This document shows positions 43,456 through 58,530 of a DNA stretch of 64,000 bases, piece after piece. The stretch is taken from the NCBI GenBank assembly GCA_945890645.1, contig CAMDCV010000006.1, forward strand, positions 1 through 64,000. Reading direction: 5' to 3'. The stretch comes from Akkermansia muciniphila (lineage in GTDB: Bacteria > Verrucomicrobiota > Verrucomicrobiia > Verrucomicrobiales > Akkermansiaceae). The notes below the pieces were generated by a model. The model was not told the origin of the DNA. It was given only the letters and a program-made list of their open reading frames with translations, and searched no databases. Each line of letters starts with the position of its first letter. Within the stretch, counting starts at the first letter, position 1. The position numbers and the translations under genes were made by a program.

Positions 43456-43477
43456 GGCGCTACTTTTGGGAGTCGCT

Positions 43478-44266
43478 TCATTTATTGGCTTTTAAAAGGA
43501 CTTCATGAATCCGATCTGTCTCATCAAACCCACAAAACAGTTCACACTTTTCCTCGCCAATGTGACGACTGTAGCTATCGATCATCTGCGTATTTCGATC
43601 GTAGAGCATGATCGGCTTCAGGCCTTGGTAATTCTTTTTGAGCTCATCCCAACGGAATCCCCACTGCTCCATCTTGCTCGAAAGATCGTTTTTTGCCCGC
43701 AGCAATTGCACGGCTATTGGAGTGGCGACTGGCATGTAGAAATCCACCTTGATCGTGCGCTCCTTGGTAATATTAAGACGACGATTGCGCTCGGCCGCCA
43801 TCCCAGCATCATGAAACACACGCTGCACCACGCTTTCCGCTACATTTTCCTCGGTGACGCGGGGATCGTGCAAGAGATGGAGCTGGGAAATGCTAAGCAG
43901 CCCCTCGGTGAAGACCTGAATTTCTGTTGCATCCATGGGAACCTCTAACCAGCGGTAGAGCTCATCACCGTTTATCACAAGCCCACATTCGCCACTAATT
44001 CGAGCAATATGTGCCTGCAAAGCCGGCGTATCTACATTCTGCCCCTGCCCTGCTAGCCATCCAAGTGTGCGGCCTTGGTCACTGAGGCGAAATCCCTTGG
44101 GTGTCTTTTGACTGATTTCCAATACCATCTGCCATCCATCAGGAAACGACGCTGGCATCGTAAAAATATAACCATCGCGATGGGATTCAATCGAAAGCAA
44201 ACGATCCCAAAGTGTCGTTAATGACTCGCGAAGCAGAGTAGATGTGAGTGACGTGTTGTTGCTCAT
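43478..44266 (-). CDS. DUF1828/DUF1829-like protein within the type I R-M operon
   Basis: The ATG at 44266 (MSNNTSLTSTLLRESL) gives 262 aa, with an ATGA overlap to the upstream gene (its TGA is at 44263-44265). The N-terminal half has RLSDQGRTLGWLAGQGQNVD, the DUF1828 hallmark, and the C-terminal half (TIKVDFYMPVATPIAVQLLRAK) looks like the DUF1829 partner domain. Such genes occur near mobile and defence genes but their role is unclear. Here it is translationally coupled inside the hsd operon, so it is likely functionally tied to it. Confidence 0.72.
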   Translation of the reverse strand: MSNNTSLTSTLLRESLTTLWDRLLSIESHRDGYIFTMPASFPDGWQMVLEISQKTPKGFRLSDQGRTLGWLAGQGQNVDTPALQAHIARISGECGLVINGDELYRWLEVPMDATEIQVFTEGLLSISQLHLLHDPRVTEENVAESVVQRVFHDAGMAAERNRRLNITKERTIKVDFYMPVATPIAVQLLRAKNDLSSKMEQWGFRWDELKKNYQGLKPIMLYDRNTQMIDSYSRHIGEEKCELFCGFDETDRIHEVLLKANK

Positions 44267-44739
44267 GAGAATAACCCTCCATCCCATTGAAAGCCAAGAT
44301 CAATATTCCACATTTTAGCCGTCTGGCTAATGAAATCCTGAAAGTCCGAGGGCGCAAACCCCTCCAAAGGGTGATGAATATTTTGCCGCACATCATTCGT
44401 CGGCAGGTTGGGATCACAAACGTTTTGGTGCCAACCCTTCGGAATTCGATTCTTGTAGCGAAGATTCTCGCGAGCAATGGGATTGTAACCCACGCCGCGC
44501 ACCCGCTGGTTGGCTATGAGAAAACTTGCATCATAGGTTTCTGGCTGGTCGAGCCTCGGCGCACTGCCAAGAAAGCGCATGTCAATGAAGCCTCCATTGA
44601 TCAAATGCGGCCGAGTCTCAAATTTCATCGATTTGCGTTCTTTGCCGCAACGTTCCAATTCGACCGCCTCTCCTGCCGGAAGGCACTTCGGCTTAGAGAT
44701 GATCTCCTGAATCTGATGAGTGGGATAAGGATAGGACAT
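44263..44739 (-). CDS. Unknown protein between hsdS and the DUF1828-like gene
   Basis: This 158-aa protein has no family I recognise. It contains several His/Trp/Cys-containing segments (GKERKSMKFETRPHLINGGF, then SFLIANQRVRGVGYN, then NRIPKGWHQNVCDPNLPTND) and an acidic C-terminal tail (FQDFISQTAKMWNIDLGFQW). It starts 12 bases after hsdS and its TGA overlaps the ATG of the next gene. It has no signal peptide or membrane segment, so it is cytoplasmic. A role as a regulator or an immunity component of the system is inference. Confidence 0.7.
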   Translation of the reverse strand: MSYPYPTHQIQEIISKPKCLPAGEAVELERCGKERKSMKFETRPHLINGGFIDMRFLGSAPRLDQPETYDASFLIANQRVRGVGYNPIARENLRYKNRIPKGWHQNVCDPNLPTNDVRQNIHHPLEGFAPSDFQDFISQTAKMWNIDLGFQWDGGLFS

Positions 44740-44751
44740 GATTGTTACGGG

Positions 44752-45978
44752 TTAGACAAACATTTGCTGCAAAAGCCCTTTCTTGAAGGTTTGGGTGTGG
44801 GTGATCTGCTGGGCCACGCTTTCGATCTTGCGGTCGAGGGCGGTGAGGAAGTTGGCGATCTTGGTTTGTTCAGCGTTGCTGGGGAAACGTAGGGAAAGCC
44901 CCTTCAGTTGGTCGGGGTAGAGGTGAATCACGGAACTCCCTTGGGCAACTCTCGCGATAGCGTGCTTGCAGGCGTTGTTGAGATAGTAGGCGAGGAAAAC
45001 TCCGTTCAACTTCGTGCGAATGATGTTGAGATCTCCACCGAGTGCGATGCCTTTGGACATGACGCAGGAAGCTGTCGCAATATCGATGTGGGTTTCGCCA
45101 GAGGCAGGTATGATCACATCGTTTTCTTCACTGAGAACAAGCTCCTTCTCAGGCACGTTAGTGCGAGAGTTCGTTTCCTGAATCAACTCGGAGTAAATGG
45201 TGTAAAGCTCCCCATAGCGGATGCAAGGGATTTCACCATCCTCCACAAGATCAGCTTTCGATAAACCTTTCCCTTTTAAGATCCGGCATACCGTACCCAA
45301 TTTCTTCTCCTCCCACTCGGGGAAGTCGTTGCCGTGGTCGTCTTTGAAGCGGAGGGCTTGGGTGAAGAGCTGTTGCATCACGCCCTTCTTGTAGTCCTCC
45401 AGCAGGGCTTTCTTTTGGCTCAGTTGCCCAATCCGCCCATCCACCACCGTCAAGAAGTCCGCGATCTTCCGCTGCTCGGGGAGCGTAGGGAATGCGAACG
45501 GAATACTCTCGATGTCACGGCTACCGATGTTCGGCTGTGCCCCGGCGACCAAGAGTGATGATAGCGAGTCTTGGAATTTCTTCGCACCCACGTAACCCGT
45601 TAAAAATCTCGTATCGTGATCGGTGCCCAAACGGCGAAACAAACCGACGCGCTGATTTAAGTAAGCCTTTTGATCGAGTGAGTAGGTGCAGGTTTTTCCC
45701 GTCGTCGCGCCCGACATTGCGATCAACAAATCACCGTTCAGTATCACAAAAGCGCTTTCGTTGCGAATTTCCGGATGATATTTCACCCCCGAAAGATCGA
45801 TCCCGCCTACTGTAACGTTTGATATTCTAATTACTGGAACACCCTCCGTTGTGAAATCTTCGCTTTTAAAAGCGTAACCGCCTTGCAGGCGGTATGCCGT
45901 ACCAACGGTTCCCTCCTCCCATGGCGTGTCAAAGCCGGAGAACCGCAGTTGTGGCATCGTTTCAAGGTCAGCAATCAT
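44752..45978 (-). CDS. hsdS: Type I restriction-modification specificity subunit S
   Basis: This 408-aa protein has two target-recognition domains separated by conserved helical spacers. TRD1 is at about 15-170 (PWEEGTVGTAYRLQGGYAFK), with FAFPTLPEQRKIADFLTVVD marking the first spacer. TRD2 is at about 220-360 (PEWEEKKLGTVCRILKGKGL), and a second spacer ends the protein (QTKIANFLTALDRKIESVAQ). HsdS sets the DNA target for both the M and R subunits; the target sequence cannot be read from protein. It starts 3 bases after hsdM. Confidence 0.93.
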   Translation of the reverse strand: MIADLETMPQLRFSGFDTPWEEGTVGTAYRLQGGYAFKSEDFTTEGVPVIRISNVTVGGIDLSGVKYHPEIRNESAFVILNGDLLIAMSGATTGKTCTYSLDQKAYLNQRVGLFRRLGTDHDTRFLTGYVGAKKFQDSLSSLLVAGAQPNIGSRDIESIPFAFPTLPEQRKIADFLTVVDGRIGQLSQKKALLEDYKKGVMQQLFTQALRFKDDHGNDFPEWEEKKLGTVCRILKGKGLSKADLVEDGEIPCIRYGELYTIYSELIQETNSRTNVPEKELVLSEENDVIIPASGETHIDIATASCVMSKGIALGGDLNIIRTKLNGVFLAYYLNNACKHAIARVAQGSSVIHLYPDQLKGLSLRFPSNAEQTKIANFLTALDRKIESVAQQITHTQTFKKGLLQQMFV

Positions 45979-45981
45979 AGA

Positions 45982-47550
45982 TCAGAGTGGAGTTTTGATT
46001 CCCAGTTCCTCGCAATATCCTGCAATTACCTTTTCGGTGTCGCTCATATTCTTCTCCAAAGCCGCTAGCTTCTCCGCGACGTATTCCAAATCGATTGCTT
46101 CTTCAGCATCGAAGGTATCGACGTAGCGCGGAATGTTTAAGTTGAACTCGTTTTCCTCTACCTCGCTCAATTCGGCGACGTGACTGAATTTCTCGATACT
46201 CTCACGTTTCTGGTAAGTGCTAACAATGCGCTCGATGTGTTCGGGGCGCAGGTAGTTTTGATTGCCTACTTTTTCAAAGCCTTGGCTGGCATCGATGAAA
46301 AGGATTTCGTCAGGGTTTTCGCGCCGTTTTTTGAACACCAGAACGCAGGTGGGAATGCCCGCACCGTAGAAGATATTGGCCGGGAGGCCGATGACGGCAT
46401 CGAGGTAGTTGCAATCCTCGATGAGGTATTTTCTGATGTGCCCTTCCGCACCACTGCGGAAGAGCACGCCGTGCGGTAGGACGCAGGCCATAATACCATC
46501 GTTGTCGAGGTGGTGGACCATGTGCTGGACGAAGGCAAAGTCGGCCTTGGTTTTCGGAGCCAGTTTGCCGTAGGCGCTGAAGCGGTCGTCATTTTCATGG
46601 ATGGCGCTGGCGGACCAGTTGGCGGAGAATGGCGGATTGGCGACGATGGCATCGAAGCGCAGATCGGCGTGTTCGGGCGCAGGATGCTCCAGGGTATCCT
46701 CGTTTTTGAGGTCGAAGCGCTGATAGTGGACGCCGTGCAGGATCATGTTCATGCGGGCGAGGTTGTAGGTGGTGGGGTTCATCTCCTGCCCGTAGAAGTG
46801 GCCGACGTCCTTCACCTCCTTGGCCACACGCAGCAGCAGGGAGGCGGAGCCGCAGGTAGGGTCATAGACGCTCTTTAGTTTCTTTTTCCCGGTGGTGACG
46901 ATCTTCGCCAGAATGGTGCTGACTTCCTGCGGGGTATAGAACTCGCCCGCCTTCTTCCCCGCGCCGCTGGCGAACTGGCCGATGAGATACTCGTAGGCAT
47001 CGCCCAGCACATCGGCCTCGGTATCGGCGAGGCGGAAGTCGATCTTATCGAGGTGGCTGAGCACCTTGGCGATAAGTTCGTTTTTCTGGCTCTCGGTTTT
47101 CCCGAGCTTGGACGAGCCGAGATCGAGATCCTCGAAAAGTCCCTCGAAATCGTCCTCGCTGGCGTGGCCCATGGTGCTGGCCTCGATGTGCTTGAGCACG
47201 GCGGTGAGGTCGGAAAGAATGAAGTTGTCTGTTTTCTGTGCGCCCTTTTCCGCGATCTTGTGGAAGAGTTCGGTGGGTTTCAGGAAATAGCCGAGGCGCT
47301 CGATGGCCTCCTCCTTGATGGCGGAGAGCATTTCCTTGCCCTGCTTCGTGGTGTCGTCGAGCTGATCGAACTGGATGCCGTCGTGCTTCAGGATCTCATC
47401 CGCGAAGAGGTGCATCCGCTCGGAGAGGTATTTGTAGAAGATGAAGCCCAGGATGTAGTCCCGGAACTCATCCGCTCCCATCTTCCCGCGCAGGGTGTTG
47501 GCGATGTTCCAGAGCTGGCTTTGGAGAGTCTTCTTGTGGTCTTCGGACAT
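45982..47550 (-). CDS. hsdM: Type I restriction-modification methyltransferase M subunit
   Basis: This 522-aa adenine-N6 methyltransferase has an N-terminal helical domain, then DPTCGSAS (230-237, motif I, SAM binding) and NPPF (305-308, motif IV, catalytic) in VANPPFSANW. Start is ATG at 47550 (MSEDHKKTLQSQLWN). It is the first gene of the operon; a repeated 24-bp sequence lies 86 bases upstream of its start. It methylates the target defined by HsdS and protects host DNA. Confidence 0.95.
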   Translation of the reverse strand: MSEDHKKTLQSQLWNIANTLRGKMGADEFRDYILGFIFYKYLSERMHLFADEILKHDGIQFDQLDDTTKQGKEMLSAIKEEAIERLGYFLKPTELFHKIAEKGAQKTDNFILSDLTAVLKHIEASTMGHASEDDFEGLFEDLDLGSSKLGKTESQKNELIAKVLSHLDKIDFRLADTEADVLGDAYEYLIGQFASGAGKKAGEFYTPQEVSTILAKIVTTGKKKLKSVYDPTCGSASLLLRVAKEVKDVGHFYGQEMNPTTYNLARMNMILHGVHYQRFDLKNEDTLEHPAPEHADLRFDAIVANPPFSANWSASAIHENDDRFSAYGKLAPKTKADFAFVQHMVHHLDNDGIMACVLPHGVLFRSGAEGHIRKYLIEDCNYLDAVIGLPANIFYGAGIPTCVLVFKKRRENPDEILFIDASQGFEKVGNQNYLRPEHIERIVSTYQKRESIEKFSHVAELSEVEENEFNLNIPRYVDTFDAEEAIDLEYVAEKLAALEKNMSDTEKVIAGYCEELGIKTPL

Positions 47551-49634: not shown

Positions 49635-50076
49635 GATAGGCGAAACGAGATGATAGGCTGCACTGTAAGAAACAACAATGACAGAAGAGACAATCTGTTT
49701 CTATCAGCTTCGCCTTGTGGCTCAAGAACAAAAGACGGGCCGTGAATGAATTTTTGCCGATGAGTCGTTTTTGTGAATGGGTGAGAGCGCGGAGACGCGA
49801 GGAGCGAGCAGCGTGCGATTTGAAAGTGGAAAATGGAAAGCTGGAATAGAGAAACCGCGAAATACCGCGAATGGGAAAGGGAAAAATAGTGAAGAGTGCA
49901 GAGTGAAAATTTCGATTCAAATTTCCTGCGTTCCAGCCTTCCTTATGAAATTGCCATTCATCATGAGGAATAATTCCCTCCCATGCAAAAGGCAATGAGG
50001 CGTCCCGTTAGGATGCAAGAGGGGTGGTGGGGGTATGTCCCATGATTAAAATCATGGGCTATGATGAGTCGTCCCG
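49635..50076 (-). other. Gene-free region upstream of the TPR gene (about 440 bases)
   Basis: I see no convincing gene: the open frames here lack signal, codon pattern and homology. It contains the second copy of the 24-bp repeat (49751-49774) upstream of the TPR gene, and at its right end the hairpin repeat element 49998-50090. Confidence 0.6.
49751..49774 (-). promoter_or_regulatory. 24-bp repeat upstream of the TPR gene (copy B)
   Basis: TTTTTGCCGATGAGTCGTTT plus TTGT, one mismatch to 47636-47659. It lies 117-140 bases before the TPR gene start. It may be a shared operator, or a footprint of a duplication. Confidence 0.5.
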
Positions 50077-50090
50077 TTAGGACGTTTGAG
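49998..50090 (+). repeat. Dispersed repeat element with hairpin
   Basis: CGTCCCGTTAGGATG (50001-50015) recurs as CGTCCCGTTAGGACG (50070-50084). Between them CCCATGA (50039-50045) pairs with TCATGGG (50052-50058). This is a REP-like intergenic element, related in style to the ones at 36078 and 39296. Confidence 0.65.
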
Positions 50091-50532: not shown

Positions 50533-50563
50533 ATGGTGCGCGATGCAGGGTTCGAACCTGCGA
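50533..50563 (-). repeat. attL: 31-bp direct repeat of the tRNA-Val 3' end
   Basis: This 31-base segment is identical to 58455-58485, which is the 3' end of tRNA-Val(CAC) (minus strand) including the T arm, acceptor 3' strand and CCA. The sequence diverges one base after each end. It is not a functional tRNA. Confidence 0.9.
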
Positions 50564-50647
50564 AACCAATTTTACTATTGATAGCCCAATAAAACATTGA
50601 TAAATCAACAAAATAAAATGTCAAAAACTTGACAGAACGCCAAAAAT

Positions 50648-50668
50648 AGGTGACAATATGGGTGACAA
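50648..50668 (+). promoter_or_regulatory. Candidate integrase arm-type sites, left pair
   Basis: AGGTGACAA (50648-50656) and GGGTGACAA (50660-50668) are direct repeats spaced 12 bases apart, between attL and the integrase start. The same spacing and core are found at 58374-58394 near attR. Confidence 0.6.
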
Positions 50669-50686
50669 CAAACCACCAATCACCCT

Positions 50687-51988
50687 ATGGCATCAGTATT
50701 CAAACGCAAAGCAGGCGGAAAAGCGGACGGGAAAAAATCCGCGATTTACACCGCGCAATTTTACATCACCAATCCCGATACGGGCGAACTCGAAAAAGTG
50801 TGGAAATCCACGGGCGAGACTAACAAATCGAAAGCACTCGCCAAGGCGGTGGAAATGGAACGCTTGGCGCAAGGGGCAATGCCAGCGGATGACAGCAAGC
50901 AAGAGCAAATGAAATCCCTATACTCGCAGCTAGGGCAAGAGATGGCGCGGGAAACGATCACGAGCGTATCTCTCAGAAAATTCTTTTCATCCATGATGCG
51001 GATTCTCACGGGCGAGGAAATGGAAATCGTCACGATCAAATCGTGGTGCAGTGAATGGCTTGCGAGAAAAGAGCGGGAAAGCAGCAAGGCAACGATGGCG
51101 CGATACAAGGGGCATGTGAAAGCGTTCATTGCATGGATGGGAGACAATGCCGCCAAACCACTGGAAACGCTCACCACGGGGGACGTGGAACGCTGGAAAC
51201 GGCATTTACTCGATCAGGGCATAGCGGGAAAAACCGCGCTTTCCTATCTGAAAGACCTAGGGCAAATTTACCGCTACGCGATCAGAGAGGGATTGATTGC
51301 GTTCTCACCCGTGGGAGCCGTGGCAGCACCTAGCACCGATGATTCACAAGAGCGCAAACCGTTCACATCAGAGGAAGTCTCGAAACTTATCGCAGCAGCG
51401 CCAAGCGAGCAATGGCGGGGCATGATACTTGCCGCCGCATTTACAGGCTTGCGCCTTGGTGATGTGGCACGTCTCAAGTGGTCATCAGTGAACCTTGAAA
51501 CGAAGATGATCGAACTCATGCCAGCAAAAACCAAGCGCAAGAAAAAAACAGTCTCAATCCCGATACATCCCGACTTGCTCGCCTATCTCTCCGCCGCACC
51601 CGTGGCAGATGATTCACCGGATGCGTACGTTTTCCCCGACATGGCGCGTTTGAAAGAAAATGCAGGCTCGAAACTTTCCGACCGTTTCCCCGAAATCATG
51701 AAAGCCGCCGGAGTGAGCAGGGGCAAAGCGTCCCGAGAGATACCGGATGGCGATGAGGAAGCGGCGAAAACGAAAGGAAAAGGACGCATCACTTACGAGC
51801 GCGGATTCCACAGCTTGCGCCACACGTTCACGACATGGCTACGCACGGCGGGAGTTAGCGAAGAAGATCGTATGAGCCTCACAGGACACAGCACCCGCGA
51901 CACACACGCGATTTACTCGCACACCGACGAAAAAGTCTTGCGCGATGCAGTCGGAAAACTCTCAACCCTGAAAGACAAAAAGAAATGA
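50687..51988 (+). CDS. Tyrosine recombinase (integrase)
   Basis: This 433-aa protein starts MASVFKRKAGGKADGKKSAI. An N-terminal arm-binding-like region is followed by the SAM-like core-binding domain and a catalytic domain. Catalytic residues visible: Arg256 (TGLRLGDVARLKW), His375 and Arg378 in HSLRHTFTTWL, His401 in GHSTRDTHAIYSH and Tyr410. It is located beside attL as expected for a tRNA-targeting integrase, and its TGA overlaps the next gene's ATG (ATGA). It should catalyse integration and excision at tRNA-Val. Confidence 0.95.
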   Translation: MASVFKRKAGGKADGKKSAIYTAQFYITNPDTGELEKVWKSTGETNKSKALAKAVEMERLAQGAMPADDSKQEQMKSLYSQLGQEMARETITSVSLRKFFSSMMRILTGEEMEIVTIKSWCSEWLARKERESSKATMARYKGHVKAFIAWMGDNAAKPLETLTTGDVERWKRHLLDQGIAGKTALSYLKDLGQIYRYAIREGLIAFSPVGAVAAPSTDDSQERKPFTSEEVSKLIAAAPSEQWRGMILAAAFTGLRLGDVARLKWSSVNLETKMIELMPAKTKRKKKTVSIPIHPDLLAYLSAAPVADDSPDAYVFPDMARLKENAGSKLSDRFPEIMKAAGVSRGKASREIPDGDEEAAKTKGKGRITYERGFHSLRHTFTTWLRTAGVSEEDRMSLTGHSTRDTHAIYSHTDEKVLRDAVGKLSTLKDKKK

Positions 51989-52572
51989 GCGCGAAACCAA
52001 ACAAAGTCGGCAGACCGAAAAAAGAACTACGCGCAAAGTCTATTTATCGCGTTCCAATCCTAACGGAAAAAGAACTAGTTATGACCAAGACTAAGAAAAA
52101 AATGCGACCGCTTGAGAAGCTAGCGAATGACCCAAAATTCAGAGTGATTATTCAAAACGTCACGCGAAAGGGTTATCTTGTAAATGCCATAACTGACCCT
52201 CACAGTCAGGAAAAAATGCCAGCCAAGGCGTTTGGTTATTCTCTTGTCGTAAACGACCACGACGAAGACGAATCAATGGGGGCAATGCTTTGTGAGTTCA
52301 TGAGAGACATGAGCGCGGATGACTTGCAAAAAGTTTTCGATTCAATCATGCGGATGAAACGCAATGCAGAATTCTGGCATCGCAATTCCTACGCTTACGA
52401 TGCTTACAATAAATACATTGAAACGTATGGGAGAGAGCCAAGCAAAAACGCTTTGAAATGCTTCATCATTGATCACCCGAGAGAGTTTAGAGACGCACCA
52501 GACCCCGACGAAAAAAGCGGATGGACTCGACTATGGAAAGCCGTGGGGCTTGAAAAACTTAAATCAAAGTAG
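51985..52572 (+). CDS. Unknown element protein with Lys/Arg-rich N-terminus
   Basis: This 195-aa protein overlaps the integrase stop by ATGA. It starts MSAKPNKVGRPKKELRAKSI, an AT-hook-like GRPKK basic segment, and continues with a globular region (GYLVNAITDPHSQEKMPAKA, DDLQKVFDSIMRMKRNAEFW, YDAYNKYIETYGREPSKNAL). No membrane segment. I recognise no family. Coupling to the integrase gene and the basic N-terminus suggest DNA binding; this is inference. Its stop codon lies inside an inverted repeat (52569-52598). Confidence 0.72.
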   Translation: MSAKPNKVGRPKKELRAKSIYRVPILTEKELVMTKTKKKMRPLEKLANDPKFRVIIQNVTRKGYLVNAITDPHSQEKMPAKAFGYSLVVNDHDEDESMGAMLCEFMRDMSADDLQKVFDSIMRMKRNAEFWHRNSYAYDAYNKYIETYGREPSKNALKCFIIDHPREFRDAPDPDEKSGWTRLWKAVGLEKLKSK

Positions 52573-52598
52573 GCATGAAACCCTAATTCAATGCCTAC
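52569..52598 (+). promoter_or_regulatory. Inverted repeat upstream of the excisionase-like gene
   Basis: GTAGGCAT (52569-52576) and ATGCCTAC (52591-52598) form an 8-bp perfect inverted repeat 37 bases before the HTH gene start. It may be an operator or a weak hairpin; there is no T tract. Confidence 0.4.
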
Positions 52599-52635
52599 GA
52601 CATAGCGCATAAAAATCCCAAAAGTGCTTTGCGGT

Positions 52636-52932
52636 ATGAAAAACGCAAGTGCGATTCAACAACGACAGGCGCAACCAAAAACGGTAGCGAATAACCAAGC
52701 GGCAAAACAAGAACCCGAGTGGTGCGATGAAAAAACCATCACCCGACTTTTCGGCATAACCCACACTCCGCTTTTCAATCTCAGGAAAGCGGGAAAAATT
52801 CGCAGCGTATCAACGGCAGTTGACGGGGCGAAATACGGAAAGCGATTGTATCTATTGCAATCCGTTCGTGATTTTCTGGAAGCACAAGAGCGCGACCAGA
52901 ACAATGCTAACAAGGAGGGCGCACTCGTATGA
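52636..52932 (+). CDS. Excisionase/AlpA-like helix-turn-helix protein
   Basis: The ATG at 52636 (MKNASAIQQRQAQPK) gives 98 aa. The domain EWCDEKTITRLFGITHTPLF and following NLRKAGKIRSV is a MerR/excisionase-type winged helix (start-site recognition then wing KYGKRLYLLQSVRDFLEAQE). In PICI-like elements a small gene of this type next to the integrase controls excision and early genes. Its stop overlaps the next start by ATGA. Assignment rests on the motif only. Confidence 0.7.
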   Translation: MKNASAIQQRQAQPKTVANNQAAKQEPEWCDEKTITRLFGITHTPLFNLRKAGKIRSVSTAVDGAKYGKRLYLLQSVRDFLEAQERDQNNANKEGALV

Positions 52933-53159
52933 GCAATCCTGATTTCATTGCCGTTAGATACACGCACGGCGCAAAGATAGTCACAGATGAATTGCTTGCT
53001 GATTTGCTTGCGCCACTGATTGACGAAATGAAAGAATCATCTGCCGAAGCGGGTGAAAATATTTTTTCACGACAAGAGTGGCTAGCAATCATCAAAAACG
53101 ATATTGCCAAGCTCCCTAACAACTTGCCAGCAGAATTGAAAGGAGAGCAAGCACAATGA
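52929..53159 (+). CDS. Unknown small element protein
   Basis: This 76-aa protein (MSNPDFIAVRYTHGAKIVTD, ending NLPAELKGEQAQ) is soluble and acidic in the middle (LIDEMKESSAEAGENIFSRQ). Both ends overlap its neighbours by ATGA, so it belongs to a coupled block with the HTH gene and the primase gene. No family recognised. Confidence 0.65.
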   Translation: MSNPDFIAVRYTHGAKIVTDELLADLLAPLIDEMKESSAEAGENIFSRQEWLAIIKNDIAKLPNNLPAELKGEQAQ

Positions 53160-54103
53160 TTGCCGACCTATTCAAACAAGCGCGGGAATCAATCACAATC
53201 CCCCAAGCGTGGAAAATGTTAGGTCTCGCAGGCGAACCCAAGGCATCATGCAAATCACCTTTCCGTGATGAGCGCACACCGTCATTCACGATTTACGAAA
53301 ACGGCACACGATGGAAAGACCATGGCGAACAAATCGGCGGTGACGTTGTGGAGTTTATCAAGACCGCTATCGGCGGCGACTACCAAGCCGTGAGGGAATG
53401 GCTACAGTCTCGCATTGGCACAATCGAAGCACCACGAACCACCGCCACGGCATCAGTGAAAGCGAAGCACATCGAATACCCCGCGACGATCACCGAGGGC
53501 ACAGAACGGCATTGGCGCACACTAGCTAGGGCACGTGGTCTCGACCAGATCACCGTGGAATTTCTCGCCAAGTTTGGAATGGTGAAATTCATGCATCACG
53601 ATGAAAAAAATTGTTTCATTGTCACCGATGCGACCAACCGAGCAGCAGAGATCCGCAGGCTCGACGGTGAACTTTTCAGCAATGGCAAAAAGGCGTATGC
53701 ACTAACGGGCGTGGACAAGTCGTGGCTCGTCGGTGCTGACCTGCTACGCCATACGCCCGAGGCTCATGTTTTACTTGTGGAAGGTTGCACCGATTTTCTG
53801 ACCGCATGGGACATGAATGTCGTTTTCCGCCAGGACAAACATGTTAGGGAATCGAAATGGCTACCCGTGGCACTACTTGGCGCGAGCTGTAAAGCATTGC
53901 ACCCCGAGTGCGCGGAATTACTCGCAGGGCGACACGTTCGGCTTGTGCCAGACGGCGACGATGCAGGCGATAAGATGCGCGATGACTGGACGGCAACCTT
54001 GCAAGCTATCGGATGCACCGTGGACGTTGTTGTCGTGCCAAGGGGCAAGGACTTAACCGACCTTAAAAACGAAATCGAACCCCAAGAACTTTTCACTCTA
54101 TGA
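53156..54103 (+). CDS. Primase-like protein with Toprim domain
   Basis: This 315-aa protein has a DnaG-like N-terminal segment: CKSPFRDERTPSFTIYENG, in which only one zinc-binding Cys (Cys32) is visible rather than a full CHC2 set. The next block is WKDHGEQIGGDVVEFIKTAI. The Toprim domain shows VLLVEGCTDFLTAW (Glu209) and RLVPDGDDAGDKM (Asp266, Asp268). It should make primers for element replication. ATGA overlaps link it to both neighbours. The downstream gene is a RepA-like ATPase, together a primase-helicase pair as in satellites. Confidence 0.85.
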   Translation: MIADLFKQARESITIPQAWKMLGLAGEPKASCKSPFRDERTPSFTIYENGTRWKDHGEQIGGDVVEFIKTAIGGDYQAVREWLQSRIGTIEAPRTTATASVKAKHIEYPATITEGTERHWRTLARARGLDQITVEFLAKFGMVKFMHHDEKNCFIVTDATNRAAEIRRLDGELFSNGKKAYALTGVDKSWLVGADLLRHTPEAHVLLVEGCTDFLTAWDMNVVFRQDKHVRESKWLPVALLGASCKALHPECAELLAGRHVRLVPDGDDAGDKMRDDWTATLQAIGCTVDVVVVPRGKDLTDLKNEIEPQELFTL

Positions 54104-55254
54104 GCGCAATTCAAATCATCAAACCAGCATTGCAAGTGAATACTGAACCAGAGAAAAAACCACGGCGCACGCTCGAATCGTTTCGCGTAAATCATACTGA
54201 CACCGTGGGCATGTCGTGGGAACAAATCGACAACTTGCGACCACCTTTCGTCGTGGACGGATTTGGACGGCGTGGGGAACTCATGCTGTGTGCCGCTGAA
54301 AGCAAATCGCGCAAATCGTGGCTTGTGCAAGACCTAGGTTTTTGCGTGGCTATCGGCGAACCGTGGCTTGCTAAGGAGAACGGCACAGGCGGATTTGAGA
54401 CGGCACAAGCAAAGGTGCATGTCATGGATTTGGAACTTAGCCAAGGGGAGATGCGTTTCCGCTTTGCTAAGGCGCGGGGAAATCGAACGGCGAACATCGC
54501 AGAGCAAAATCATCTCACCGATCAATTCGCGCATTACTCACTCGATGATGTGCAAACGCTCGACGTGTTTGTCCTACTCGATGAACTAAAGGGCACAGTG
54601 GCCGCTGGTGATTTGGTAATCGTGGACTGTCTCTATCGCCTGCATCCAGACGGCAATGAGGCAAAAGAAATTGCGTCCGCATTCACTACGCTGAAAGACT
54701 TTGCCAAGGCCACCGCCGCGCTTGTCGTCGTCGTCGATCACTTTCGCAAAGCGGGTGCCGATAAAGCAAAAGACCGCATTGCCGGAACCTTCGTTAAATC
54801 GGCATCGGCAAGCACCATCGTGGCGATCCAGACAAACGCCGAGGGAGTTCTCGAAATGTCAATCGACGCTCGCACCTTCCACGGCAACGATAAAGTGCAT
54901 GCACGTTTCAACGTGGACAACTACCGATTCGAGACGGTGGGCGATGACTACGCGGCACCCGTCACGGTGGACACGTTCACTCAACACTTGTTTGATTTGT
55001 GGCAAAGCCATGACCACGGCGCAACAGTGACAAAGAAGCAAGCACAGGCGAAATGGAACCTCGATAACCTACAAGCAGCCGACTACCGATTGAAGAAAAT
55101 GGAGGGCATGAAATGGCTTTTCAAGCGGAAGGACGGCAAGGCGTGGACATATTCACTCTCAGGGCGCGGAGTGGAGATTTTACAAAGTGCAAAACCGCTT
55201 GCACATTCACTTGCACTTGGTGAGGGAAAACAGGCTGAAATGCTTATGGAATAA
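54100..55254 (+). CDS. RepA-like AAA/RecA-fold replicative ATPase
   Basis: This 384-aa protein has a variant Walker A (AAESKSRKSW, residues 65-74), where the last Gly of GxGKS is Arg; such KARKS/KSRKS forms occur in RepA-type phage helicases. Walker B is DLVIVDCLYRLHPDGNE. The C-terminal part is a winged-helix-like region (WNLDNLQAADYRLKKMEGMK). It overlaps the primase-like gene by ATGA. The iteron cluster begins inside its last codons and continues downstream, so this ATPase may bind or act at that origin. A replicative helicase role is inference. Confidence 0.8.
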   Translation: MSAIQIIKPALQVNTEPEKKPRRTLESFRVNHTDTVGMSWEQIDNLRPPFVVDGFGRRGELMLCAAESKSRKSWLVQDLGFCVAIGEPWLAKENGTGGFETAQAKVHVMDLELSQGEMRFRFAKARGNRTANIAEQNHLTDQFAHYSLDDVQTLDVFVLLDELKGTVAAGDLVIVDCLYRLHPDGNEAKEIASAFTTLKDFAKATAALVVVVDHFRKAGADKAKDRIAGTFVKSASASTIVAIQTNAEGVLEMSIDARTFHGNDKVHARFNVDNYRFETVGDDYAAPVTVDTFTQHLFDLWQSHDHGATVTKKQAQAKWNLDNLQAADYRLKKMEGMKWLFKRKDGKAWTYSLSGRGVEILQSAKPLAHSLALGEGKQAEMLME

Positions 55255-55400
55255 AGGAGAAAACTACAAAAAGCATTTTGCACATAAGTAACCAGAAAAC
55301 TCGCCTTTGTCTGTCAGTAGTGCGCTTTTCAAGCACTACTGACAGGCAAGTGCAAAAGTGCAAGTCACCTATAAGGATTGCACTTGCACTTGCACTTGGT
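55181..55400 (+). other. Iteron cluster with hairpin: candidate replication origin
   Basis: TTGCAC/GTGCAA-type units in both orientations are packed into ~215 bases: AAAGTGCAA (55184-55192), TTGCAC at 55200, TTGCACTTGG (55211-55220), TTGCAC at 55279, AAGTGCAA twice around 55349-55363, and three tandem TTGCACTT-like units at 55379-55399. CTGTCAGTAGTGC (55311-55323) and its exact inverse (55333-55345) form a 13-bp hairpin with a 9-nt loop in the middle. This layout next to a primase-helicase pair fits an origin. There is no gene between 55255 and 55438. Confidence 0.65.
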
Positions 55401-55438
55401 GAACCAGAGCAAAAACAGAACTCAAACCACCCCATGCA

Positions 55439-55687
55439 ATGAATGATTTTTTCCCAACTATCCCGAGCAAGAAATCACCAGCGACCCCGCGCAAGATTGT
55501 GAGAATCTTACTAGGCGAGACGGCATCACAAGCCCTCGATGATACTGGTATCCCCGCCTTCGCTATCTGTGGATGCGAGAGAACACCCGACCACCCGAGG
55601 CGATGGGTAATTTATCTGGCAGAGACTCGACACCCCGCAGCGCAAGAGTGCATCAAAATGATGAGAACCAAAGCCGCCAACCAATGA
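55439..55687 (+). CDS. Unknown small element protein
   Basis: This 82-aa protein begins MNDFFPTIPSKKSPATPRKI and ends RHPAAQECIKMMRTKAANQ. It contains a Cys pair (AICGCERTPDH) in the middle. No family recognised. It follows the iteron region, and its TGA overlaps an ATG at 55684 that opens a 32-codon frame ending in GSRKDG; that frame may be remnant or non-coding. Confidence 0.55.
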   Translation: MNDFFPTIPSKKSPATPRKIVRILLGETASQALDDTGIPAFAICGCERTPDHPRRWVIYLAETRHPAAQECIKMMRTKAANQ

Positions 55688-55705
55688 CAAACAATCGTTT
55701 TATGA

Positions 55706-55990
55706 ACTTCCCGAACATTTGTTTTACACCGCCGTCACCTAAACGAAGCTCAGCGCGGAATGGTAGCCGCAAAGATGGCTAATTTGCAGCATGGGGGAGA
55801 TCGTAAAAGCGATGAAATCAAAAGTGCTAAAGCACCATTGATAACCCAAGCCCAAGCATCGGAAATGCTGAACATTTTCGACACCGCCGCCATTCTGTAT
55901 GGCATTCGATACAGGAGACCAACAAACCGCACAAGATTGGCTGGCACAAGAAGCGCAATGGATGAACGAACCCGAGGACGAGCGTATTGA
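55706..55990 (+). pseudogene. Fragment of a ParB-like/DNA-binding gene, likely frameshifted
   Basis: In this frame the sequence reads TFVLHRRHLNEAQRGMVAAK, then MANLQHGGDRKSDEIKSAKA and PLITQAQASEMLN. This is the typical ParB-like pattern (LHRRHL..QR.MVAA.. then ..SQ..AAEMLNVS). The family's next motif is missing after MLN, where the frame drifts to non-matching text, and there is no start codon upstream (stop at 55703-55705). The pattern suggests a decayed gene or a gene expressed by frameshift; a sequencing indel is also possible. Another real-looking gene overlaps it from 55899. Confidence 0.5.
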
Positions 55991-56342
55991 AAAACCGATA
56001 CACAATTTGGATGCAGAAACGGTCCGAGCCCTCGTATTGTTGGTGCTGCCACCAGTCGAAAATCATGTTACAAACGTAAGATTGAAAACGGCATTTAAGC
56101 GTTTCCTGATATTGGCGGCACTCATCGATGATTCACTTGCCGCGCGTGGTCTGGGTGCTATCGCCAAAGCACTCACAGAAATCGGATTGACTACGTCCAG
56201 AGCGTCACTCTCGCAGTTGCATGTCGCACTTGCTGACATCGTCGGAATCCATCGACTTGGCAGATCAGATGCAGCTCGGGAATCGTATCGGCAAAGCGCA
56301 AAAAAAGTCTGGTCACAAAAGAAAAAAGCTCATGCACTATGA
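55899..56342 (+). CDS. Unknown element protein, helical
   Basis: This 147-aa protein begins MAFDTGDQQTAQDWLAQEAQ and continues with ETVRALVLLVLPPVENHVTN and LKTAFKRFLILAALIDDSLA, then GLTTSRASLSQLHVALADIV near the C-terminus. It is mainly helical and has no membrane signature strong enough to call. Its start lies inside the ParB-like fragment in another frame, so start and frame are uncertain. No family recognised. Confidence 0.5.
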   Translation: MAFDTGDQQTAQDWLAQEAQWMNEPEDERIEKPIHNLDAETVRALVLLVLPPVENHVTNVRLKTAFKRFLILAALIDDSLAARGLGAIAKALTEIGLTTSRASLSQLHVALADIVGIHRLGRSDAARESYRQSAKKVWSQKKKAHAL

Positions 56343-56547
56343 TCATCGTTTTATTCCACACAATCGCCTTTCTAGGGCGTTTCACTCGATTCTGGTATGG
56401 ACACACTAAAACAATCCGAAACGCTCGCACAGGGCAACAGGAGCGGTGAGGGATAGCCCCTATAACTAATATCTTACGATAAAGCTCCTATCCGGTGTCC
56501 GCATCATAGCGTCTTGTCCGTGTGAATAACATTTTTACCACCTATCT
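56343..56547 (+). other. Gap before the late gene block
   Basis: No gene is seen in these 205 bases. It likely holds the promoter for the four right-hand genes, but I can point to no convincing -35/-10 pair. Confidence 0.4.
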
Positions 56548-57006
56548 ATGCAAAAAAAGGAATCACTCTCATCAATATCCCGCAGAACGGGCGTTACGCT
56601 GGCAACCCTTCGCGCTTGGCGTGAATCCGGTGTTGATTTGCATTCACCCAAGGCACTAGCCGACAAGATTGCGAATCGGCAACCCTCGAAGCCGACCCTG
56701 GCAGGAAACGCGCTTCACGATGCAAAATTGAAGAAGCTGTTAGCCGAAGCAAGAACGGCAGAACTCCGCGCTGACATTGCCGAGGGTAAAGCTATCAACC
56801 TCGAAGACCTCACGATTTGCCTAACGAAAATCGGATCCGTTTTGAAAGCCCAGTTGTCGAAACTCCGCGCAGATATGCCGCCTATGCTCTACGGACTCTC
56901 ACAAGCGGAGATGACAAAAAGAATTGGCGATGCAGTCGAAAAAACCTTGCAAGGCATCGTCGATGAATTGGAAGCGATTAAGACCGACCCGCCCCGTCCC
57001 GAGTAA
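56548..57006 (+). CDS. HTH protein resembling phage terminase small subunit
   Basis: This 152-aa protein starts with an HTH (ISRRTGVTLATLRAWRESGV) like the MerR/Nu1-type DNA-packaging proteins, followed by a charged coiled-coil stretch (DAKLKKLLAEARTAELRADI) and LKAQLSKLRADMPPMLYGLS, with the ending KTLQGIVDELEAIKTD. Small terminases of this kind mark packaging sites; a satellite copy would redirect packaging of a helper phage. No large terminase is present. The assignment is by layout and motif, so it could also be another HTH regulator. Confidence 0.5.
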   Translation: MQKKESLSSISRRTGVTLATLRAWRESGVDLHSPKALADKIANRQPSKPTLAGNALHDAKLKKLLAEARTAELRADIAEGKAINLEDLTICLTKIGSVLKAQLSKLRADMPPMLYGLSQAEMTKRIGDAVEKTLQGIVDELEAIKTDPPRPE

Positions 57007-57029
57007 AACTTGCGAAACTTTTTGACACT

Positions 57030-57287
57030 ATGTCTTTAGTGATGACTGTCACACCGCCTAACATTTCACGCATCGCAAATGCCTATGGAATAAGCGAGCA
57101 AACGCTCCGCAAATACAAGCGTGAAAGGGGCATCACAAACGCCGACTTGCTCAATCCGTTCACCCTCGCCGCCAAGCTCCGCGCTAGTGCCGTGAATGAT
57201 TCCCCACGTTTGCGCTTGCTCGAAGACAAAACCACTTGCGGACAAATTACTTTTCGTCTGGCAGTTGCCGGACTCATCGAACCTTAA
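57030..57287 (+). CDS. Small HTH-like element protein
   Basis: This 85-aa protein reads MSLVMTVTPPNISRIANAYG, then ISEQTLRKYKRERGITNADL and LNPFTLAAKLRASAVNDSPR, with RLLEDKTTCGQITFRLAVAG at the end. The first part resembles a short helix-turn-helix. It sits 23 bases after the terminase-like gene. No family recognised. Confidence 0.6.
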   Translation: MSLVMTVTPPNISRIANAYGISEQTLRKYKRERGITNADLLNPFTLAAKLRASAVNDSPRLRLLEDKTTCGQITFRLAVAGLIEP

Positions 57288-57305
57288 ATTCTCACCCGTA
57301 AAATT

Positions 57306-57719
57306 ATGACTGAAACAAAACAAATGACATCGCTCTTTGCGAATAAAGCCGACTTAATCGCTTCACAATCGCGAGTGAAAGAACTCGAAAAGGAAATCAC
57401 CGCGCTGAAATCATCGCCACTTGGCGCACAGCTTACAGCGGCAAAAGCTACCATCACACTACTCACCGCCGAAAATACGGCTTTGAAATCGCGACCGTTG
57501 GCTGTGACCGCAACCAAGGCAGCTACCGCCCCCGCTAAGGTATCCCCCGCGCCTGCTAAGGTATCGACAGCCCCCGCAGCCAAGCCGATCACGGCAGAAG
57601 AATATCGCAGCACACTCGCCCCAAAAATGACCATGACCATTGCAGATTTTAACACGCTGACAACTAACGAAAAAAACCTATTCATCAAACAGGGCGGCAA
57701 ACTGACACCAACTAACTAA
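57306..57719 (+). CDS. Coiled-coil element protein with phage-like C-terminus
   Basis: This 137-aa protein has a coiled coil (RVKELEKEITALKS, then ATITLLTAENTALKS), an Ala/Pro/Lys linker with AKVSPAPAKVSTAPAA, and a C-terminal module MTIADFNTLTTNEKNLFIKQ, then GGKLT. The last motif resembles short modules seen in phage-encoded small proteins (DFN.L...EK..FI..GG.L). Function unknown. Confidence 0.6.
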   Translation: MTETKQMTSLFANKADLIASQSRVKELEKEITALKSSPLGAQLTAAKATITLLTAENTALKSRPLAVTATKAATAPAKVSPAPAKVSTAPAAKPITAEEYRSTLAPKMTMTIADFNTLTTNEKNLFIKQGGKLTPTN

Positions 57720-57723
57720 AATC

Positions 57724-58281
57724 GTGAAATCAATCCTCGAAGAAATCAAAGTCGTGAAAAAATCACTCCGCAGCTCCGCAGAAATCCGCGCCGAAATTCA
57801 ATCTTTTCCGCGCTGGCAGAGGCTACTTCGTTTGAACTTAATCGCCGCCCGTAACCGTGCCGAGGAGTTACGACAAGCCGTTGTCCTTTATTCCTTGCAA
57901 TCGAACACCCATCTCGACATAGCAAACGGCGCAGATCAAAACCACGTCGAAAACGCCGCTGGCACTTTCTCCAATTCAATGAGCATAACCAATCTTTTTG
58001 CGCCGCTGGCATCGTGCGAAGCCGTCTTGAAAATTCTCGAAGGCGACCAACAGCATCAAGCCGCTTATCAAAAAATTCAGCCATTGCAGGACGAACTTAT
58101 CGAAGCGGAAAATCGCGAGGCATTGTTACGAGCCGAGGCAAACCAAGCCGCAAACGAATTGGAAGCCGCCAAGGAAACCGCACGCGCTGAAATGGAGAGC
58201 AAGATCGACGATCACCCCGCAGTCGTGGAAGCGCAACGCAAGCTCGAACCCTTTCGCCGCTTGGGTGAAGTCATAGTATAA
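57724..58281 (+). CDS. Coiled-coil element protein
   Basis: This 185-aa protein (MKSILEEIKVVKKSLRSSAE) has coiled-coil heptads in the N- and C-terminal parts (QPLQDELIEAENREALLRAE, then LEAAKETARAEMESKIDDHP). The middle (LQSNTHLDIANGADQNHVEN) is polar. It starts 4 bases after the previous gene and is followed by the element's terminator. No family recognised. Confidence 0.6.
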   Translation: MKSILEEIKVVKKSLRSSAEIRAEIQSFPRWQRLLRLNLIAARNRAEELRQAVVLYSLQSNTHLDIANGADQNHVENAAGTFSNSMSITNLFAPLASCEAVLKILEGDQQHQAAYQKIQPLQDELIEAENREALLRAEANQAANELEAAKETARAEMESKIDDHPAVVEAQRKLEPFRRLGEVIV

Positions 58282-58311
58282 TCTCGCATCGGCTTCTCAT
58301 CACCGGATGCG

Positions 58312-58349
58312 CCCCACCTAGGTTTTGTTTTCCCTAGGTGGGGTTTTTT
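58312..58349 (+). terminator. Strong rho-independent terminator at the element's end
   Basis: CCCCACCTAGG (58312-58322) pairs with CCTAGGTGGGG (58333-58343), an 11-bp perfect stem with a 10-nt loop, followed by six T. Confidence 0.93.
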
Positions 58350-58373
58350 GTGTCGTGGTGGGAAAATCTGAAT

Positions 58374-58394
58374 AGGTGACACTTTAGGTGACAG
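58374..58394 (+). promoter_or_regulatory. Candidate integrase arm-type sites, right pair
   Basis: AGGTGACAC (58374-58382) and AGGTGACAG (58386-58394) are direct repeats spaced 12 bases apart, the same spacing as the left pair at 50648 and 50660. They lie about 60 bases inside attR. Confidence 0.6.
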
Positions 58395-58454
58395 GAAACC
58401 CGCGAAAACCACCTCGAAACGCCGGAAATCATTGATTTTACAATAAAAAAAGAA

Positions 58455-58485
58455 ATGGTGCGCGATGCAGGGTTCGAACCTGCGA
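58455..58485 (-). repeat. attR: 31-bp direct repeat within tRNA-Val
   Basis: This is identical to 50533-50563. It is the 3' portion of tRNA-Val(CAC) and shows that the element integrated at the tRNA end while leaving the gene complete. Confidence 0.9.
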
Positions 58486-58530
58486 CCCCATCCGTGTGAA
58501 GGATGTGCTCTACCACTGAGCTAATCGCGC
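58456..58530 (-). tRNA. tRNA-Val (anticodon CAC)
   Basis: Read on the minus strand, a cloverleaf is seen: acceptor GCGCGAT/ATCGCGC, D arm GCTCAGTGGTAGAGC, anticodon stem CATCC/GGATG with loop TTCACAC (anticodon CAC, Val, reads GUG), T arm GCAGG-TTCGAAC-CCTGC, discriminator A and an encoded CCA. It is the target site of the element to its left. Confidence 0.95.

Follow-up and report, generated by a model that had tools for sequence, protein, structure and literature searches.

Phage-inducible chromosomal islands (PICIs), among them the Staphylococcus aureus pathogenicity islands (SaPIs) and EcCICFT073, are recognized by a size of about 12–15 kb, by the absence of structural and lytic genes, by an att site that prophages never use, by genes with orthologues in known PICIs, and by an integrase, a replication module and a master regulator in conserved order (PMC6092414). 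These islands redirect packaging through a small terminase subunit (TerS) or through Rpp (PMC6092414; for the Rpp mechanism, PMC6739421). Some SaPIs encode an additional internal scaffold, CpmB, and the satellites PLE (PICI-like element) and P4 use the external scaffolds TcaP and Sid, respectively, to redirect coat assembly (PMC10945586). The phage-inducible chromosomal minimalist islands (PICMIs) of Vibrionaceae are very small, hold few genes, adjoin fis, lack packaging genes and depend on a helper for their virion (PMC10803314). In agreement with the first-pass annotation, which knew of no described family from Verrucomicrobiota, we found no description of a phage satellite from this phylum in the open-access literature searched, and a prior description elsewhere is possible. 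Here we examine an element at positions 50,533 to 58,485 of a 64,000-nucleotide stretch ("the window") of an Akkermansia muciniphila assembly (contig CAMDCV010000006.1). We read it, with a probability of roughly three in four, as an integrated phage satellite, belonging to a new family in Verrucomicrobiota, that would redirect helper packaging through its TerS and capsid assembly through an orphan scaffold protein.

Anatomy of the element and comparison with described satellites

The element spans 7,922 bp between two perfect 31-bp direct repeats (ATGGTGCGCGATGCAGGGTTCGAACCTGCGA, identical at 50533–50563 and 58455–58485), and the right repeat forms the 3′ end of tRNA-Val(cac), the sole tRNA that ARAGORN reports in the window, so that the element restores its target gene on entry. 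All 12 genes lie on the plus strand, 87% of the element is coding, and its G+C content is 50% compared with 53% for the remaining window. At the tRNA-Val of six congeners the element is absent; the tRNA and its right-hand neighbours are conserved there, and the opposite flank of the tRNA differs. The repeats, the intact tRNA and the single gene direction proposed in the first-pass annotation are confirmed. The features, with the helix-turn-helix (HTH) genes and open reading frames (ORFs) named below, are as follows.

50533..50563 (+), attL, left copy of the 31-bp direct repeat; exact
50645..50674 (+), left GGTGACA repeats, 83% repeat of 58371–58400
50687..51988 (+), tyrosine integrase, 433 aa; PF00589 (Phage_integrase) 5e-16, phrog_1 2e-53
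51985..52572 (+), g2, 195 aa, overlapping the integrase stop codon; a 39% identical gene adjoins the integrase in the G324 element
52636..52932 (+), AlpA/excisionase-like HTH protein; weak, HTH_17 E 0.08, phrog_66 excisionase 0.005
52929..53159 (+), g4, 76 aa; ORF only, no Pfam match
53156..54103 (+), DnaG-type Toprim primase, 315 aa; PF13155 (Toprim_2) 3e-7, PF01807 (Zn_ribbon_DnaG) 1e-5
54100..55254 (+), RepA-like AAA_25 ATPase, 384 aa; PF13481 3e-19
55185..55397 (+), iterons, nine TTGCAC/GTGCAA; motif count against shuffles
55439..55687 (+), g7, 82 aa; gene conserved among satellites, with 62% and 66% identity to its counterparts in the two G286 elements
55738..55900 (+), remnant similar by eye to a ParB-like phage protein (LNEAQRGMVAAKMANLQHGGDRKS...); the frame is open but has no proper start
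55899..56342 (+), g8, 147 aa, HTH-type; aligned with the gene upstream of terS in phage-like loci, about 40% in G263
56548..57006 (+), terS, Nu1-type small terminase subunit, 152 aa; phrog_57 2e-8
57030..57287 (+), small HTH protein, 85 aa, conserved after terS; 32–58% in same-genus sister elements
57306..57719 (+), cc1, 137 aa, orphan scaffold-like protein; tail matches the C-termini of phage head-protease/scaffold proteins
57724..58281 (+), cc2, 185 aa, coiled-coil protein, last in the operon; G263 and L058 have a weakly similar protein at the equivalent place
58282..58366 (+), double hairpin, terminator plus conserved TGGTGGG; covariation in four satellites, covariance model matches
58371..58400 (+), right GGTGACA repeats, pairing with the left copy
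58455..58485 (+), attR, right copy of the 31-bp direct repeat; exact
58456..58530 (−), tRNA-Val(cac), intact, 3′ end supplied by the element; ARAGORN

The element possesses an integrase and its own replication genes without a complete virion set, and, as judged by homology, genes that would act on helper packaging and capsid assembly (TerS and the scaffold tail). Large terminase, portal, coat, tail and lysis families were not found among the products searched (10 of 12 each in PHROGs and Pfam), as the first-pass annotation had stated for all of these but lysis, and cc1, although scaffold-like, is no virion protein. The calls of integrase, primase, RepA-like ATPase and TerS in that annotation are likewise supported by Pfam, PHROGs and NCBIfam; of its AlpA/Xis-like HTH protein, the HTH stands but the AlpA/Xis identity is weak, and a 43% homologue lies near a related integrase in locus L052. 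The iterons are clear, with nine motifs in about 210 bp (55187–55395) compared with at most three in 200 shuffles, and they probably mark the replication origin. The short GGTGACA repeats at both ends are probably integrase arm sites. PADLOC returned matches of the primase to the DnaG domain only, and one marginal HTH match. Neither the primase nor TerS had a match among 50,697 phage records, and in IMG/VR the RepA-like ATPase had one weak match, whereas TerS had none.

Like the PICIs, the element combines an integrase, a primase and replication module and att repeats with a gene that could redirect packaging; it differs in phylum, in size (7.9 kb, small as the first-pass annotation had remarked, and below the 12–15 kb of PMC6092414), and in pairing TerS with an orphan scaffold whose tail matches phage coat lineages. 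The only candidate regulator is the weak AlpA-like HTH protein. When we compared its proteins with one Gram-negative PICI, EcCICFT073, the integrase matched weakly (E 1e-4) and the other genes did not. The earlier label "PICI-like" therefore fits the probable way of life but not the lineage: the element would work like a PICI or a PLE and should not be filed as either, and membership in the PICI lineage is not supported. P4-like satellites are characterized by Sid, Psu, Delta and P4 alpha genes. The likeness of the element to PLE and P4 is a satellite scaffold that would redirect coat assembly, but TcaP and Sid are external scaffolds, whereas cc1 looks like an internal one, namely the scaffold domain of head-protease/scaffold proteins. 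Very small size, few genes and presumed dependence on a helper virion recall the PICMIs; the PICMIs adjoin fis and have no packaging genes, whereas this element sits in tRNA-Val and its family is found in tRNA genes, with terS and cc1 among its own genes. Capsid-forming PICIs also influence their own heads, as this element may, but they do so with their own coat, portal and terminase genes, and no coat, portal or large terminase gene is present in the element.

A scaffold-like protein and a small terminase subunit in the right half

In the product of cc1 a coiled coil is joined through an Ala/Pro linker to a conserved C-terminal tail, and the protein resembles a free-standing phage scaffold. 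A cc1 profile run against 145 genomes of the family matched satellites only, in six genomes, five of which fall within the ten-genome genus of the window. When the tails of the G286b and G263 elements were compared with 927 ORFs of 15 phage loci, the top ranks were taken by head-protease/scaffold C-termini or by a separate scaffold-like gene after the protease; the window-type tail had no clear match in this set. An order-wide search of 387 genomes with the window-type tail returned three clear non-satellite matches (E about 1e-5), and all three are C-termini of head maturation proteases (Clp or S49 type) adjoining the major head protein.

The tails fall into two types, each matching one of two phage coat lineages. 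Tails of the window, G290, G286a, G324 and G152 match phages with a coat of ~387 aa at z-scores of 6–13 and score mostly below 2, with one value of 3.9, against phages with a coat of ~298 aa; the G286b and G263 tails show the reverse pattern, though not with every member. Note that the ~387-aa-coat phages were found by using these very tails, which inflates the z-scores, and that the functional coherence of the matches is the stronger point. The two coat groups have no BLASTP match to each other, yet both belong to phrog_283. Because the two tail types correspond to two coat lineages, helper range might be readable from sequence and might change when cc1 is swapped, the tail serving as an interchangeable address for the helper coat; we regard this proposal as tentative, at slightly under even odds.

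If cc1 acts in this manner, it could drive the formation of small capsids, by analogy with CpmB, TcaP and Sid (PMC10945586). It might instead do no more than block the assembly of helper capsids, as an inhibitor or a decoy, in which case concatemers of satellite DNA would be packaged into heads of normal size. That cc1 matches phage scaffolds in its tail and general architecture only would suit such a role, and PICMIs do package concatemers without capsid genes (PMC10803314). However, coiled coil, Ala/Pro linker and tail jointly copy the layout of a phage scaffold, and we consider a purely blocking function unlikely, at about the level of a serious minority view. Elsewhere in the order, three compact integrase-bearing elements (L058:4632–15151, L217:3996–13690 and L218:3225–13757) each encode a scaffold-tail protein. 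They variously add a head maturation protease and a tape-measure-like protein, and they lack the TerL (large terminase subunit), portal and coat of the tested set; they are possibly satellites that also set tail length.

The assignment of terS, termed a terminase-small-like HTH gene in the first-pass annotation, is borne out by several lines of evidence. Matches to phrog_57 occur in the window, G263 and G189 elements. A profile built from 17 TerS proteins has as its best Protein Data Bank (PDB) match the lambda TerS of the RppC complex (6hn7_B, E 0.003), with gpNu1 lower (1j9i, E 0.02), and a search of BFVD with the predicted model (predicted local distance difference test, pLDDT, 84; predicted template modelling score, pTM, 0.46) found the small terminase of a phage (E 4e-4). 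Foldseek against the PDB gave nothing useful for TerS or g8. In most of the prophages found, a homologous terS is followed by a GpA-type TerL, a portal, a protease/scaffold and a coat gene; in the window element and its sisters, no TerL follows. The gene g8 has a homologue upstream of terS in several phage-like loci, as seen by alignment, and our guess is that it is regulatory. Lambda-type prophages of Akkermansiaceae (L080, L155 and L194) share the scaffold tail with the element, L080 and L155 also share TerS, and g8-type HTH genes occur in related phage-like loci; these prophages differ in carrying TerL, portal, protease and coat (in L194 and L220 shown in part), which the satellite lacks.

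The TerS-like protein could also be an adaptor of the Rpp type, which would bind helper TerS and switch its DNA specificity rather than replace it. The TerS profile weakly finds RppC itself (E 0.22) in addition to the lambda TerS of the RppC complex, the lengths are close (152 aa compared with 153 aa for the RppC chain), and the N-terminal extension of local phage TerS proteins is missing. However, similarity to phage TerS runs through the C-terminal half (phrog_57 positions 54–174; alignment), the half responsible for oligomerisation and contact with TerL. We judge an adaptor role to be improbable, at about one chance in five.

Sister elements and exchange of modules

The first-pass annotation had proposed a search of other verrucomicrobial tRNA genes for this order of genes, and eight complete sister-type elements were found. 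They are bounded by perfect 32–53-bp repeats, occupy seven other tRNA species and measure 6.4–14.9 kb; with the window element, the family uses at least eight kinds of tRNA gene.

G263: tRNA-Met, 40-bp repeat, 7,769 bp
G290: tRNA-Asn, 39-bp repeat, 7,539 bp
G286a: tRNA-Pro, 45-bp repeat, 6,695 bp
G286b: tRNA-Leu, 53-bp repeat, 6,384 bp
G324: tRNA-Arg, 52-bp repeat, 14,881 bp
G373: tRNA-Thr, 39-bp repeat, 8,311 bp
G393: tRNA-Ser, 32-bp repeat, 10,633 bp
G189: tRNA-Pro, 50-bp repeat, 9,453 bp

The last four resemble the window element more in architecture and in a TerS-like gene than in sequence, and their membership in the family is less certain. The G263 element was located through a class-wide TerS search by its 64% identical gene; its host is a metagenome-assembled genome of the same genus as the window genome, deposited as Akkermansia muciniphila, which agrees with the verrucomicrobial type of host assigned earlier. 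Partial elements were recovered in G288 (L138) and in G384, where there are three, beside tRNA-Phe, tRNA-Thr and tRNA-Val; these three right ends (L143, L144 and L145) are related, with mutual identity of up to 92% in parts. Five of the ten genomes of the genus hold the family. A tblastn query set taken from local phages (TerL, portal, coat, S49 and tape-measure proteins) had no match in the window element, in seven of the complete sisters or in four partial elements, and G286b, checked with the same queries, also has none.

Identities between elements form a patchwork. The window primase is 76% identical to its counterpart in G286a and its TerS 64% to that of G263 and 52% to that of G290, whereas its integrase is only 27% identical to that of G290 and its g2 39% to that of G324. 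G286a and G290 have 670 bp around cc2 in common at 92% despite different TerS proteins. Replication modules are swapped between elements, and the set g8-terS-HTH-cc1-cc2 tends to stay together, joined within the genus by the double hairpin. Such a pattern indicates recombining mobile elements and not one inherited wreck.

These data bear on the alternative of prophage decay, in which the virion genes would have been lost while integrase, replication genes and terS survived by chance. TerS, g8 and the replication genes are all phage-related, and a ParB-like remnant is present, as decay would predict. However, the reduced gene set recurs, with its ORFs and att repeats intact, in many genomes and at many tRNA genes, which disfavours decay; moreover, modules are exchanged between elements, and cc1, a scaffold without its protease, is found in these elements only among the 145 family genomes. 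We therefore hold a decayed prophage to be quite improbable. An integrative plasmid or integrative mobilizable element is the least probable reading. The primase, the RepA-like ATPase and the iterons are plasmid-like, but the products searched (Pfam, PHROGs and NCBIfam) include neither a relaxase nor a mobilisation family, the primase is unmatched in 72,556 plasmids, and the right half consists of packaging and scaffold genes whose terS-scaffold module is conserved in relatives.

Downstream of cc2, the sequence of four satellites from the genus folds as a pair of hairpins and ends with a T-run and TGGTGG. Nine of 19 pairs are changed on both sides and 95% of cells pair, values that no shuffle attains and that compare with 32–43% paired in slid controls; the statistics come from four sequences, and the structure was drawn from the same four. 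A covariance model scores 84–97 bits on these sources and, in the 145 genomes, finds two further strong places: G286b (50 bits, a satellite) and the end of a G263 contig (51 bits). The latter copy (L181:9908–9994) lies beside a tRNA-Ser and is probably the edge of a second satellite in G263. Rfam has no family for these hairpins, which represent a conserved terminator at least. Matches of G205 and G091 to the first-stem pattern were rejected because the second hairpin is missing.

Immediately left of the element, an Acido-Lenti-1 RNA (RF01687) at 50039–50084 scores exactly at the gathering threshold. A few kb further left (40528–47550) are type I restriction-modification genes (hsdR, hsdS and hsdM, assigned by eye), and the tRNA-Val locus of G263 likewise has restriction-like genes.

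The proposed satellite cycle and its implications

Under the satellite reading, the integrase would insert the element into the 3′ end of tRNA-Val, with the gene restored as its anatomy shows. Helper infection or induction would lead to excision and to replication from the iterons with the element's own primase and AAA ATPase. Satellite TerS could then take the place of helper TerS and bring the element's DNA to the TerL of a lambda-type helper, as its homology and the missing TerL suggest, while the C-terminal tail of cc1 may bind helper coat and steer it into particles fit for a small genome. Release and transfer would rely on helper products.

Several observations weigh against this scheme. 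A helper prophage, which the first-pass annotation had suggested looking for in the same genome, did not appear: large terminase PF05876 and portal PF05136 gave no match in the assembled genome (97.6% complete; other terminase families were not searched). The phages matched by the window-type tail come from elsewhere in the family or order, not from the window's genus. No cos or pac site was identified in the element, and the regions upstream of satellite and phage terS genes neither align nor share a common DNA motif. The otherwise similar G286b element (L182) has no terS, so TerS is not obligatory, and the ParB-like remnant is a sign of some decay.

In G288, of the same genus, a satellite fragment (L138) coexists with a late module that is a candidate for the helper type (L080). 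That genome also has a second TerS-TerL pair (L063, G288:C118), which is divergent, its TerL only 26% identical. The first-pass annotation had also named what would overturn a satellite: right-hand genes unrelated to packaging or helper interference, and relatives that are plain integrative plasmids or decayed prophages. Here, the right-hand genes are related to packaging (TerS) and head assembly (the scaffold-type tail), and the relatives are not plasmids but compact tRNA-borne elements without virion genes.

If the satellite reading is right, the phylum of Akkermansia would hold a new satellite family, present in half of the sampled genomes of one genus, and another lineage would be seen to combine piracy through TerS with piracy through a scaffold. 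The match between tail and coat makes the choice of helper directly testable from sequence.

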